NCBI GenBank assembly: GCA_019044685.2
Contig: JAGTXX020000011.1
Span: forward strand, 496,001-560,000
DNA from: Nannochloris sp. 'desiccata'
Lineage: Eukaryota > Chlorophyta > Trebouxiophyceae > Chlorellales > Chlorellaceae
Length of the DNA stretch: 64,000 nucleotides
Reading direction: 5' to 3'
Numbering within the stretch: position 1 is the first letter of the stretch; each line of letters starts with the position of its first letter. This document shows, in pieces, positions 11,004 to 16,082 of the stretch. Under the pieces are notes generated by a model. The model did no database searches. It was not told where the DNA came from and saw only the letters and a program-made list of their open reading frames with translations. Position numbers and translations under genes: made by a program.

Positions 11004-12565
11004 TTACATGTTGATAGATTCCACAATAAGGCGGGTAACGGTGTAGAACTCAAGGTTAGAAGCAGGCCTGCGATCCTCGTAGTATCCACACTTGTCCACA
11101 GGGACCATACGTCCAACACGAATAGAGCATCCACGGTTTGCAACACCCCATGAGAAGTCATTCATGGAAGAAGTCTCGTGTTTACCAGTCAAACGACGTT
11201 CGTTACCTTCACCATATGCGGCAATGTGGACGGCATGGCGCTTGCCGAGTTTCTCAACTTGCTTTTGGATGTTATCCCAACCGACCTCAGGGGCGCGGGT
11301 ATCGTTGTTGGAGAAGTTTACATGGCCACCAGCACCGTTCCAATCACCAGGAATGGGTTTGGGGTCAAAGGTCACCTCAACGTTGTACAACTCGGCACAA
11401 CGGAGCAACAAGTACCGGGACATCCAGAGCTGATCTCCAGCTTCAATGCCGGTCACAGGGCCTACCTGGTACTCCCATTGAGAAGGCATAACCTCGGCGT
11501 TAACACCGGAGATGGCAAGACCAGCGTATAAACAGGCTTTCATGTGAGACTCGATGAGATCACGGCCAATAGCAGCTCCGGCACCGGCTGAACAGTAGTA
11601 AGGGCCCTGGGGACCAGGGTACCCACACGTAGGCCAGCCTAGAGGCCATTTGGTCTTGGCATTGAGGACAGTGTACTCTTGCTCAATTCCAAACCAAGGG
11701 TCTTGGTCCTTGTACTTCTCCATGACAGCTGCGCAGGCAAAGCGAGTGTTGGTTGGGATGGGTTTGATGGGGGTGACGGTGCCGTCCTTGTTTACTTGAG
11801 GAGGGACGTAACAGTCGCACATGACCAGAATGTTGTCACCGCCACGGAAAGGGTCGCGGTAAATGGCTTGAGGGACAAGATAGACCTCGGAATCGTCGCC
11901 AGGAGCCTGTAGAAATAAAAGGAAAAATGATGATAAAAATGGGAGTGAGACTCAAAAAAGTGAGTGGAGCGGAATGAGAGTGATCTCATAAGTAAGGCTG
12001 GTAGAGGGTATTGAATGACAAGGCGACGCTTACCTGGCCAGTGGAAGAGCCATCGTAGTTCCAGGAAGGGAGATCCTTGGGAGAAGAGGGCTTCTTGTCG
12101 AGAACCCTGCAAAAAAGAACAAGGTCAGCGGGGATGCTAGGTTAGGGCAATGAGATGGGCAACTCGATTCTTTTGTTCTGGCATCAGCGTTGGGTGCAAA
12201 CCCAAGCTTGAAGTATATTTTATCGGTTGGATAAAAATTGACATACCTGGTCTTGCTCCTGAGGTCGGCACCTGAAAGATAAATCACCATCAACGAGAGG
12301 AGAGTTAGCGAAAAGGGCAATATATACGTGTTTCAGCACATGGGTATCAATGAAATAAATCTTAAAGTAATTTAGGCAGCCTGGATGAGGCAGGCGTGCC
12401 CCGAGTCTTACCAGTTCCACCGATCCACACATACTCTGCACAGATCTTGCCAGACTGGTCCAAGCTGCTGAAGCGATCCCAGATTGAAGGGTCGAGCAAG
12501 TTGCGCTCGGTTTCAGTAGTGCCATACACGGGGGCAAGCGTGTGAATCTCACCACCTCCGGTCAT
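11004..12565 (-). CDS. Glutamine synthetase, GSII type
   Basis: Four exons, complement of 12412..12565, 12247..12271, 12034..12106 and 11004..11906, encode 384 residues. The joins give [11 protein letters not shown], then the VLDKKP segment ending in [10 protein letters not shown], then [10 protein letters not shown], exactly as in plant and algal GSII. The enzyme ligates ammonium to glutamate using ATP and forms decamers. Visible motifs are the DGSSTGQ Asp loop, [10 protein letters not shown] (nucleotide and substrate site) and [18 protein letters not shown]. The start at 12565 opens with [10 protein letters not shown] and shows no clear transit peptide, so a cytosolic GS1-like isoform is likeliest. 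The 25-nt second exon is notable. The gene is divergent from the malic-enzyme-like gene. Confidence 0.97.
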
Positions 12566-12897
12566 TGTGACAGACAGGGCTTTAGGGTAGGGATGCAAGA
12601 AGATAGGGAGGAAGGAGAGGGCTTTGCGGTAGCAAAAAGGAGTGGAAATGAAGTCTACTATTAAACTTCAAAAGAATTGTTAAACTTGATGATTGTGTTA
12701 GGGTTAGTATTTGAAGAAACTTCAGCAACTCTTGATTTTTCTTGGAAAAAAGCGCGCAAAGGCAGAGCCCGATCAGCCCGATCCCATGGGGCATGATGCG
12801 CACAAAGAGATAGAAATGCACTCGCCTACTATGCAAGAAATAATTTAGAAATTATAAACAGCGTGCACTCGCGTGAAAATTAAAGTGTGTTGCCACC
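12566..12897. promoter_or_regulatory. Divergent promoter region, glutamine synthetase and malic-enzyme-like gene
   Basis: A 332-bp spacer lies between two divergent start codons. It is AT-rich, and I recognise no specific nitrogen-response element in it. Confidence 0.4.
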
Positions 12898-14911
12898 ATG
12901 CTTTCGAATTTGAATCGTGCCCTAAAAAGGAAGCAAACTGAAGCATTGCGTGCATTAAATGCAACGACAGCTTGTTCAATGTCGACGATTCATGGCGAGC
13001 CAGATCATATGGACTCCCCCATCAGGCCGAGCACTCCATGGGTCAGAAGTGTCATCTCCGGAGTAGATATGATGCGAAATACCAAGGTAAATAACGTCTA
13101 TTCTATTGAAATTATATTTATATATCTACTCATCACCGATAGATTTGCCAAAAATCCATCTTTTGAGCTGGAGCTGACACCCGCAACCATTTTTTCATCT
13201 CTCACCCTACACCGCCCCCCCCTCTTATTCTAAACCAAAAACCCTCCCTACTATTTTTTCATGATTGCAGTATAACAAAGGATTGGCATTTAACCATCAT
13301 GAACGTGATCGCCTCTACCTTCGCGGTCTCCTCCCACCCGCAGTCCTTAGCCAAGAAATTCAAGCAGAGCGTGTTATACTCAACATTCGAAACATGCCCG
13401 ACAACATTCAAAAAGTAACCTACCTCTTATCCCTTCAAGAACGTAACGAACGTCTTTTCTTCCACGTTCTCCAACACCACGTCGAGGAACTTTCCCAGCT
13501 ATTGCAATATCCTGCTATTGGAGAGTACTGTAGGGAATATTCACTTATGTTCCGTTCGCTCCCTCGGGGCCTTTATTTGTCCCTGGAAGATAAAGGACAC
13601 GTCAGCACGATCATTAAAAATTGGCCTGAACGACGGGTCAAAGCAATATGCCTAACAGATGGTGAAGCGGTGGGCACTCTAGGAGATTTAGGCGTCCAAG
13701 CAATTGCAGCTCCAATTTCTCGGTTAGCTTTATTCACCGCTCTGGGTGGTGTTGACCCTTCAACCTGCCTTCCTGTTACGATTGACAACGGCACAGAGCG
13801 GGAGGAGTTACTTTCTGATCCGTTATATGTCGGTGTACATCATAGAAGGGTACGGGATGACGCATACTTTGAAATATTAGAAGAATTCTTCACAGCTGTA
13901 CGACGTCGTTTTGGCGCTTCAGTATTAATCGATTTGGAAGGAATGAGCTGGGCAAATCAAACGAAGATTTTAAGTACATACCGTGGAACGTTCCCTGTAT
14001 ACAGTGATACCCATTATGGCTTACCTACTCTTGCTTTAGCTGCAATCATGGCTGCCCAGCCTGCAACGAAACTTCCTCTTGGCGCCAATAGATTCCTTCT
14101 TGTTGGAGAAAGCGCAGCGCTGTGTACAGTCGCAGAATTGATTGAGGATGCTATTCAAAGAGATAGTCGAGGTGGAACTGTCCTTGAAGCGAGACAAGCT
14201 ATTCATTTAGTCGATTCAAAGGGGCTTGTTGTCCGTAGCAGAGCAGACGCTGAAGATTTAGAAGATCACAAATTGCCTTATATTCAAGATATAAACGCTG
14301 CAGAATGCCCTGATTTACTTTCTGCGATCAAACACATCAAACCAACCGTTCTCATTGGTCTTTCTGACGGTGCACCTCCTCATGCATTCACAAAGGAGAT
14401 CTTAGAAGCCTTGGCGGAGAACTGTGAGCGACCTGTGATCTTACCAATGTCCTTGCACACAGCTGATGGAGTTGAAGGTGGGGGTGAGGTTTCTGCCATT
14501 GATGCGTATACATGGACAAAGGGTAAATGTTTCTTTGCTGATAGACACACTACGGGAGAGATTACTGTGCCAGGTATGCCAGAGCCAACCCTGGTCACTT
14601 CGTTAAACACCGCCCACATATTCCCAGGTGTTGGACTTGGGGCTTTAATGTCGAGATCCACCAGATTACGTGAAGAGATGTTTGTAGAGGTGGCAAAAAC
14701 GTTGTCACGGCTTGTTTCTGAAGAGGAAGTGCATAGGGGGGCCTTAATGCCGCCAATATCACATGCTAGGGACGTGGCTGCACATGTGGCTGCTACCTTG
14801 GCCCATAAGGCATATCAAGCTGGAGTGGCTTCAGAGTTACCGAAGCCTCATGATATGTTGGAGAAAGCGTACCATTGGATGTATGACCCCAAATATAAGA
14901 GATATAAGTAG
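12898..14911 (+). CDS. Malic-enzyme-family protein with degenerate active site (probable pseudoenzyme)
   Basis: Two exons (12898..13086 and 13271..14911) encode 609 residues. The join gives GVDMMRNTKYNKGLAF, a classic malic enzyme entry. The fold signatures continue along the whole length: YLRGLLPPA, GLYLSLEDKGHV, TDGEAVGTLGDLG, TCLPVTIDNGT and HIFPGVGLGAL. The N-terminus is basic and could be a mitochondrial presequence. By alignment from memory with human ME2, the catalytic residues are replaced. Lys183 is Arg214, Arg165 is Ala196, Asp256 is Gly287, Asp279 is Thr310 and Asn421 is Leu458; only Glu255 (Glu286) and the general-acid Tyr (~Tyr153) remain. The GxGxxG dinucleotide motif reads GESAALC. 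The frame is full length without stops, so the protein appears maintained but unlikely to decarboxylate malate. The fold assignment is firm; inactivity is inferred. Confidence 0.88.
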
Positions 14912-15192: not shown

Positions 15193-16082
15193 TTAAGACC
15201 GTTTCGCGGCATTTCCACCACTGTTCATTCTCGTCATACTATCCCTCACAATATCCATGGACAATCTCTTCCCTCCTCTCTTAGCTCTCTCCACTGTATC
15301 AGGCGATGGCGGAAATTTGGAGCTCAATTCCTTCAATACCGGCAGCGTCATATATGAGATGATACCTGGGTTTCTTTGTACTAGAGAATGCCATTCTTCG
15401 GGGTTAATTTTACCATCTCCCACCAGATCGATTTCTTTCACTGTATCTTCCACTATTCGATTTAAAGCTTCTTCATCTAGATGGATGTCGGGGTTATCAG
15501 CCATCACAGCAACTAAAAAACGTTTAATTTCTGGCGGTTCAATGGCTCCAGAGCTATCAATATCGTATATTCGGAAGGCAACTGTAGAGAGAGAAAGGCG
15601 ATTGTGCTACTATTTAGAGAACCTTAGTTAGAAAAAAGGCAAAAAAAAGAGAAACAGGCGGACTTTTGGGGGAAATCGAATATCTATCGATATCTATTTT
15701 TTGTTTTTGTTTTTTTGTGTTTTAACAACTCACATTTAGACTTCTCTTCTAATGGTGCGTTGGGATGGAACACTGATAATGATCTCACAAACTCTCCAAA
15801 CTCAATAACGTTGTTTCCCTTAATATCAAATAACTCGAAAACTCTATCGACGAATAAATTATCTTTATGCGCTTTAAACAAAGCCCAGGCCAGCTCGTCT
15901 TTATGGATGAATCCATCATGGTGCAGTTCGTTACTAAGTTTATCGTAGAGTTCTCGAAGAGCACCGATTTCGTCAGGGCCGAAATTTGTTTCCTTGGCAA
16001 GCATGGCGGTGCCGTCTGGATCAGGTTGTGAAGCTTGGCGAGGCGTTGAAATCTCTGCCGGCTTGCTACTTCCACAACCCAT
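15193..16082 (-). CDS. Calcineurin B-like (CBL) calcium sensor
   Basis: Two exons, complement(15734..16082) and complement(15193..15581), encode 245 residues; the phase-1 join yields KSKFAFRIYD. CBL proteins bind calcium and recruit CIPK kinases to membranes. The N-terminus MGCGSSKP has Gly2 for myristoylation and Cys3 for palmitoylation. Four EF-hands are visible. EF1 has the CBL-type extended loop (SNELHHDGFIHKDE). EF2 (DIKGNNVIEFGE) and EF3 (DIDSSGAIEPPE) look canonical. EF4 (DLVGDGKINPEE) has Val at loop position 3, which should weaken binding. MTLPVLKELSSKFPPSP near the end corresponds to the FPSF motif phosphorylated by CIPKs. About 25 extra residues follow. No CIPK gene is in this window. 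Confidence 0.9.

Follow-up and report, generated by a model that had tools for sequence, protein, structure and literature searches.

ME6, a candidate maintained pseudoenzyme of malic enzyme descent in Chlorellales green algae

The ME6 gene of Nannochloris lies on the forward strand of the window, the whole stretch of 64,000 nucleotides that was analyzed, and consists of two exons at positions 12898–13086 and 13271–14911. Exon 1 contributes 63 codons, including a presequence-like N-terminal stretch and the STPWVRSVISGVDMMRNTK segment, as judged from a comparison of homologue N-termini by eye, and it runs in frame to a GT donor at 13087. The intron (13087–13270) is 184 nt long and of the GT-AG type, and exon 2 supplies 546 codons and the stop. 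The 609-amino acid product is free of internal stops, and the motifs LRGLLPP, LGDLG and FPGVGLG are found in it, so that an uninterrupted frame with its fold motifs kept, as claimed in a preliminary description of this DNA, is borne out. A glutamine synthetase gene on the minus strand, with its start read by eye and its domain taken from Pfam, stands head to head with the ME6 gene. The two start codons are 332 bases apart (window 12565–12898), and the two genes may share a promoter region. At 15684–16082 on the minus strand there is a weak EF-hand match (25.9 bits, cut-off 25.4), and an open frame at 15193–15507, perhaps part of the same gene, matched no Pfam family.

The ME6 protein belongs to the malic-enzyme fold family over its full length. 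Exon 2 encodes both domains: Pfam malic covers residues 119–301 (182/182 model positions), and Malic_M covers residues 316–578 (model positions 6–258 of 258). The top PDB sequence match was 9e6m (E 2.7e-131), whose entry title names a maize malic enzyme mutant, and the best solved relatives, 5ou5 and 9e6m from maize and 6c7n from sorghum, are all annotated as malic enzymes. AlphaFold2 predicted a complete malic-enzyme fold with a pLDDT of 91.3, from an alignment that included plant enzymes and thus favours such a model. Together, the domains, the PDB matches and the predicted fold confirm the end-to-end similarity to malic enzymes that was first reported from the letters of the sequence. An AlphaFold2 model of Chlamydomonas MME6 is termed low-quality in a passage of PMC13126933.

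The catalytic positions were located with two alignments, a phmmer alignment to the pigeon malic enzyme 1gq2 and a MAFFT alignment of 122 rows, and the two agree. Positions are numbered as in human ME2, with numbers and roles that we take to be the accepted ones; the pigeon letters fit at every position checked (chain index plus one). The acid-base pair of an active enzyme is replaced, with Q142 at the position of the general acid Tyr112 (13505–13507, both alignments) and R214 at that of the general base Lys183 (13721–13723, MAFFT), and A196 stands at the position of Arg165 (13667–13669, both alignments). Of the metal ligands, Glu255 is kept as E286 while Asp256 is replaced by G287 (13937–13942), and Asp279 is replaced by T310 beside a retained Asp278, D309 (14006–14011). 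The dinucleotide-binding GxGxxG motif reads GESAAL (G342–L347, 14105–14122, MAFFT), with G342, S344 and L347 at the three glycines. Substrate-binding Asn421 is replaced by L458 (14453–14455), and in the Asn466–Asn467 pair (14606–14611) the first is kept as N509 and the second is T510.

The changes listed in the preliminary description (R165A, K183R, D256G, D279T, N421L and a broken GxGxxG, with Glu255 kept) all reappeared in the two alignments, and the Asn467 replacement is a further loss beyond them. Its statement that only Glu255 and the general-acid Tyr remain was wrong on both counts: the Tyr112 column holds Gln142 (IVYTP versus LLQYP) and the tyrosine that had been seen, Tyr143, aligns with Thr, while Asp278 and Asn466 are kept as well. 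Tyr143 was considered as a shifted general acid and rejected; Pro144 and Gly147 are in register with no indel, and Tyr accounts for just 42% of column 143 in the 38 Chlorellales-type rows described below.

Relatives were taken from the best 120 of 2825 hits of a homologue search, a sample that leans towards the ME6 protein. After two partial homologues were dropped, the remaining 118 were aligned with the window protein and three paralogues from the same genome (122 rows), and trees were built without the 13 catalytic columns. In a quick tree of all 122 rows, an 86-row chlorophyte clade contained a 38-row Chlorellales-type clade (SH-aLRT 100 each), and a more careful tree, built from 63 selected rows, gave support of 100/100 for the chlorophyte clade and 100/99 for the Chlorellales-type clade. 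The 38-row clade has Chlorella, Micractinium, Picochlorum, Auxenochlorella and Prototheca among its named members, and the remaining 33 database rows represent the streptophyte side. Rows P0036 ('MME6') and P0052 ('ME6') fall inside the 86-row clade with an SH-aLRT of 100, which places the Nannochloris protein among the ME6/MME6 proteins. Chlamydomonas MME6 (Cre06.g251400), linked to the ME6 clade by name only, should also belong there, given that name and the Volvox and C. schloesseri rows. Viral contigs, when scanned, yielded 25 pattern matches, none of them a relative.

Residue retention was counted in the 38 Chlorellales-type, 48 other algal and 33 streptophyte-side rows, all from the best 120 of 2825 hits, and the counts are given in that order. 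Asn421 is kept in 0/38, 0/48 and 33/33 rows, being absent from all 86 chlorophyte-clade rows (one a gap), and Asn467 likewise in 0/38, 0/48 and 33/33. Tyr112 is kept in 0/38, 10/48 and 33/33, and Lys183 in 0/38 (all Arg), 46/48 and 33/33. Retention is intermediate in the Chlorellales-type rows for Arg165 (13/38, 34/48, 33/33), Glu255 (14/38, 40/48, 33/33), Asp256 (15/38, 43/48, 33/33) and Asn466 (19/38, 2/48, 32/33), and nearly complete everywhere for Asp278 (38/38, 47/48, 33/33). Asp279 survives in 1/38, 31/48 (with Glu in 11 further algal rows) and 33/33, and none of the 38 Chlorellales-type rows holds all three metal ligands together. In GxGxxG, the first Gly is kept in 38/38, 48/48 and 33/33, the second in 2/38, 38/48 and 32/33 (one Ser), and the third in 0/38 (all Leu), 13/48 and 33/33.

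Homologues that share the substitutions were thus found, in named genomes and in metagenomes. The losses in Nannochloris are beyond chance because the same losses recur in these homologues, and they are not a local decay because Lys183 is Arg in 38/38 rows, none of which has Tyr112 or all three metal ligands. The same comparison bears on whether the substitutions could stem from an error in the assembly, the gene model or the alignments. The first reading did misassign one residue, Tyr112, but the substitutions are common to homologues from other named genomes and metagenomes and the two alignment methods agree, so the chance of an artefact is negligible.

The distribution of the residues on the tree suggests a graded loss. 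In the early chlorophyte rows P0080, P0085, P0105 and P0248 the Tyr, the Arg, the Lys, the metal site and GxGxxG are intact but all three Asn are missing; P0081 and P0297, a Pyramimonas row, join this group at 91/68 and show more changes. In the branches that follow, Tyr112 has mostly given way to His or Ser, although the volvocine rows P0040 and P0062 keep Tyr, and the combination of K183R, Leu in the dinucleotide motif and loss of Asp279 (37/38) occurs only in the Chlorellales-type branch. The 63-row tree requires two changes for Asn421 (the main line and the side branch P0245/P0246) and two for Lys183 (the main line and the side branch P0097). The loss does not run strictly in one direction. 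Half of the 38 rows have Asn at position 466, where it is rare in the other algal rows, and Tyr112 is scattered; the Asn466 counts and the volvocine Tyr112 are a poor fit to a simple one-way loss.

The rate of change was compared with that of the C12-type paralogue, which is of the NAD-malic-enzyme type, over 508 gap-free columns in 14 species that have both proteins. The C12-type proteins are canonical at 13/13 columns in 14/14 species. The ratio of the mean ME6 distance to the mean C12-type distance was 1.28 for the 6 pairs among the 4 Chlorellales species (range 0.90–1.97), 1.35 between Chlorellales and the others (40 pairs) and 1.04 among the others (45 pairs, range 0.50–1.30), with pairs that share species and so are not independent. 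Within the 38 rows, 134 columns are at least 95% constant, and 33 homologues listed among the best 120 of 2825 hits are at 57–96% identity with both Pfam domains in each.

These values argue against a gene that is decaying under relaxed selection. It is true that ME6 has changed a little more quickly than the intact paralogue, and that the active-site columns of the 38 rows are as variable as the average column (1.17–1.23 versus 1.09). However, the frame is open and the intron clean, divergence within Chlorellales is 1.28 times that of the intact paralogue, the constant columns and the identities among homologues are as given above, and ME6 is present in Prototheca wickerhamii. We consider decay very improbable. 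The Prototheca protein (P0069) also has the catalytic losses, and this alga, which we take to be non-photosynthetic, raises the point that the role of ME6 may not be tied to photosynthesis.

Relaxed constraint is concentrated in the active-site motifs. Of the 202 columns in which the streptophyte-side rows are constant to 95% or more, 58 belong to active-site motifs, with segments chosen by hand, and were compared with the other 144. In the 38 rows the mean entropy of the active-site columns was 1.17 versus 0.56 for the other 144, and in the 48 other algal rows it was 1.48 versus 0.63, a value reached by 0 of 10,000 draws in each case. For the 13 single catalytic residues alone, the corresponding figures were 140 of 10,000 draws (38 rows) and 292 of 10,000 (48 rows). 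In 15-column windows across the 86 rows, the greatest relaxation was at 279–298, 303–318 and 454–473, and the strongest tightening, relative to the 33 streptophyte-side rows, was at 75–102 in the helical N-terminal part. The whole N-terminal domain was also considered as the more conserved part and rejected, as the mean top-letter frequency is 0.78 in the 38 rows and equally 0.78 in plants; the statement holds only for 75–102 (86 rows).

This pattern is relevant to the main rival of a dead enzyme, namely a repurposed enzyme of changed specificity whose pocket would bind another substrate and catalyze another reaction. Letters that are not those of plants are fixed in 92–100% of the 38 rows at Y149, S154, S159, S213, R214, P305, L347, D487 and R525, some of them beside old active-site motifs, which speaks for this rival. 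A new active site should be constant, however, and in both the 38 and the 48 rows variability is higher in the active-site motif columns than in the other formerly invariant ones, with several different residues in the Arg165, Glu255 and Asp256 columns of the 38 rows. In most algal rows outside Chlorellales, Lys183, Glu255 and Asp256 are still in place, so that these algae may have an active enzyme and a form with a changed substrate is plausible. It is above all for these members of the clade that repurposing is the main rival; as an account of ME6 we regard it as rather unlikely.

A search of the genome (21.55 Mb, 18 contigs) with the malic domain gave six matches: the genes here called C12 and C6, the ME6 gene, two exons of one C2 gene, and a 29-residue piece on contig C4. 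ME6 was thus found once, together with three true malic enzyme paralogues of the kind that the preliminary description had proposed to look for. C12, C6 and C2 have the canonical residue at all 13 tested columns, with the exception of the last Gly of GxGxxG in C2, which is Ala; the first part of C6 is mis-modelled and its N-terminal segment does not align. The cofactor region reads DGSRILG in C12 and C2 and DGERILG in C6. According to a passage of PMC5958461, the plant mitochondrial NAD-malic enzyme group and the other group are told apart by Ser or Glu in the first cofactor motif. If this is the same position, as is probable, C12 and C2 look closer to the plant mitochondrial NAD-malic enzyme branch. 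The C2 gene (L004:1953–3260) has a long Ser-rich low-complexity insertion shortly upstream of its GQANN motif. The piece on contig C4 (L006, 1501–1587) is a stretch of 29 codons that holds 26 residues identical to the C2 malic enzyme, with no other malic-domain match on C4, and looks like a copied gene fragment.

Since the three paralogues have every canonical residue that was tested except the one Gly, the alga need not depend on ME6 for malic enzyme activity. A weak residual malic enzyme or oxaloacetate decarboxylase activity of ME6 itself may be imagined from the remaining Glu255, Asp278 and Asn466, which count against the pseudoenzyme reading in Nannochloris, and from the conservative nature of the Lys to Arg change; K183R by itself is not necessarily fatal to a malic enzyme. 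But here Tyr112, Arg165, Asp256, Asp279, Asn421, Asn467 and two GxGxxG glycines are replaced together, and the paralogues could supply the activity. Residual activity of this kind is improbable.

Our data thus favour a maintained pseudoenzyme, the reading that had been proposed from the start and that four computed results all support: the shared losses with their places on the tree, the predicted fold, the near-normal protein rate and the concentration of relaxed constraint. A homologous fold appears to be kept by selection, as judged from protein rates, in a protein that has lost most of its catalytic residues and whose inactivity we infer from these losses. By sequence, the pseudoenzyme reading is well supported. 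We assign a probability of roughly 0.6 to the more complete statement that Chlorellales ME6 is a maintained folded pseudoenzyme derived from a green-lineage NADP-malic enzyme, and perhaps works as a non-catalytic partner or sensor.

The order of events on the tree reads as follows. In descent from a green-lineage NADP-malic enzyme, the loss of Asn421 and Asn467 came at the root of the chlorophyte clade, and Tyr112 was then replaced in most later branches. On the Chlorellales branch, the base changed from Lys to Arg, the metal site was lost and the dinucleotide motif altered, and the folded end product would have been kept by purifying selection as a pseudoenzyme. Such a protein would be unable to oxidize or decarboxylate malate. 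It would probably be targeted to the mitochondrion, where it may act as a non-catalytic partner that dimerizes with itself or another subunit through its N-terminal domain, which is the domain that makes the dimer contact in malic enzymes. Alternatively, it may sense a metabolite at a retained N-terminal site (R97, R121); in either role the effect would be to tune an active enzyme or a carrier. The scenario as a whole is put forward as a tentative possibility: an NADP-malic enzyme became a mitochondrial regulator or metabolite sensor by degrees, losing first the substrate site, next the acid and last the base, metal and cofactor sites, so that living lineages now represent different stages and the Chlorellales protein is the fully non-catalytic end, acting through the N-terminal dimer domain.

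The N-terminal part was inspected for support of these roles. R97 and R121 correspond to Arg67 and Arg91 of what we take to be the ME2 fumarate site (Arg67, Arg91, Glu59), and R97 is present in 80/80 chlorophyte-clade rows with a residue there and R121 in 86/86. As proof of a sensor this site is weakened: on the streptophyte side the Arg67 position holds 27 R and 6 K of 33 and the Arg91 position Arg in 33/33, and Glu59 is replaced by Leu89. A motif confined to ME6 was also sought and is weakened in the same way, since TTPWVR occurs in 37/86 algal rows, some of which are cut at the N-terminus, and TPWVR in 10/33 streptophyte-side rows. In many clade members the N-terminal stretch is rich in Arg and poor in acidic residues and so resembles a mitochondrial presequence (30 rows by eye, 28 of them ME6), with P0044, P0062 and P0069, whose N-termini are short or acidic, as exceptions. 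Chlamydomonas MME6 is mitochondrial by two predictors, and its transcripts are apparently constant across the diel cycle, in a passage of PMC11548211. In the passage seen of PMC10291315, the Volvox reticuliferus homologue is a gene of the sex-determining region.

Compared with known systems, Nannochloris ME6 differs from plant NADP-malic enzyme (maize 5ou5, sorghum 6c7n) at Tyr112, Arg165, Lys183, Asp256, Asp279, Asn421, Asn467 and GxGxxG. It shares its tree clade and the loss of Asn421 and Asn467 with the chlorophyte ME6/MME6 proteins (Scenedesmus 'ME6', Auxenochlorella 'MME6'). It differs from the non-Chlorellales members, which keep Lys183 in 46, Glu255 in 40, Asp256 in 43 and Asp279 in 31 of 48 rows, and from the volvocine P0040 and P0062, which keep Tyr112 and Arg165. 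The alpha/beta heteromers of plant mitochondrial NAD-malic enzyme, as outlined in passages of PMC7573226 and PMC11971034, are a precedent for unlike subunits acting together, although they belong to another branch of the family.

The preliminary description knew of no such pseudoenzyme in algae, and searches of open-licence PMC full texts brought up no account of an algal malic enzyme that is dead. The claim needs qualification, as passages of a 2018 paper (PMC5958461) mention a cluster of green algal malic enzymes that sits on a very long branch, has conserved motifs altered by several mutations (data not shown) and is perhaps neofunctionalised. These are likely the ME6 proteins, although the passages give no residues or sequence names.

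Several clade proteins carry the database name 'NADP-dependent malic enzyme', so metabolic models may count them as NADPH sources, wrongly so if the proteins are dead. The clade consists of living lineages at various points between enzyme and pseudoenzyme, which makes both the order of loss and the new role directly testable, and Chlamydomonas, with its genetics, has MME6.

Changes at the same positions were also seen on the streptophyte side. P0249, from the streptophyte alga Klebsormidium nitens, is a separately altered relative in which Tyr112, Arg165, Glu255 and Asp279 are changed and the three Asn kept, and P0245 and P0246 carry D278G and N421H. The Closterium proteins P0086, P0091 and P0092 are intact at the tested sites and have PF00085, presumably thioredoxin, among their Pfam domains.
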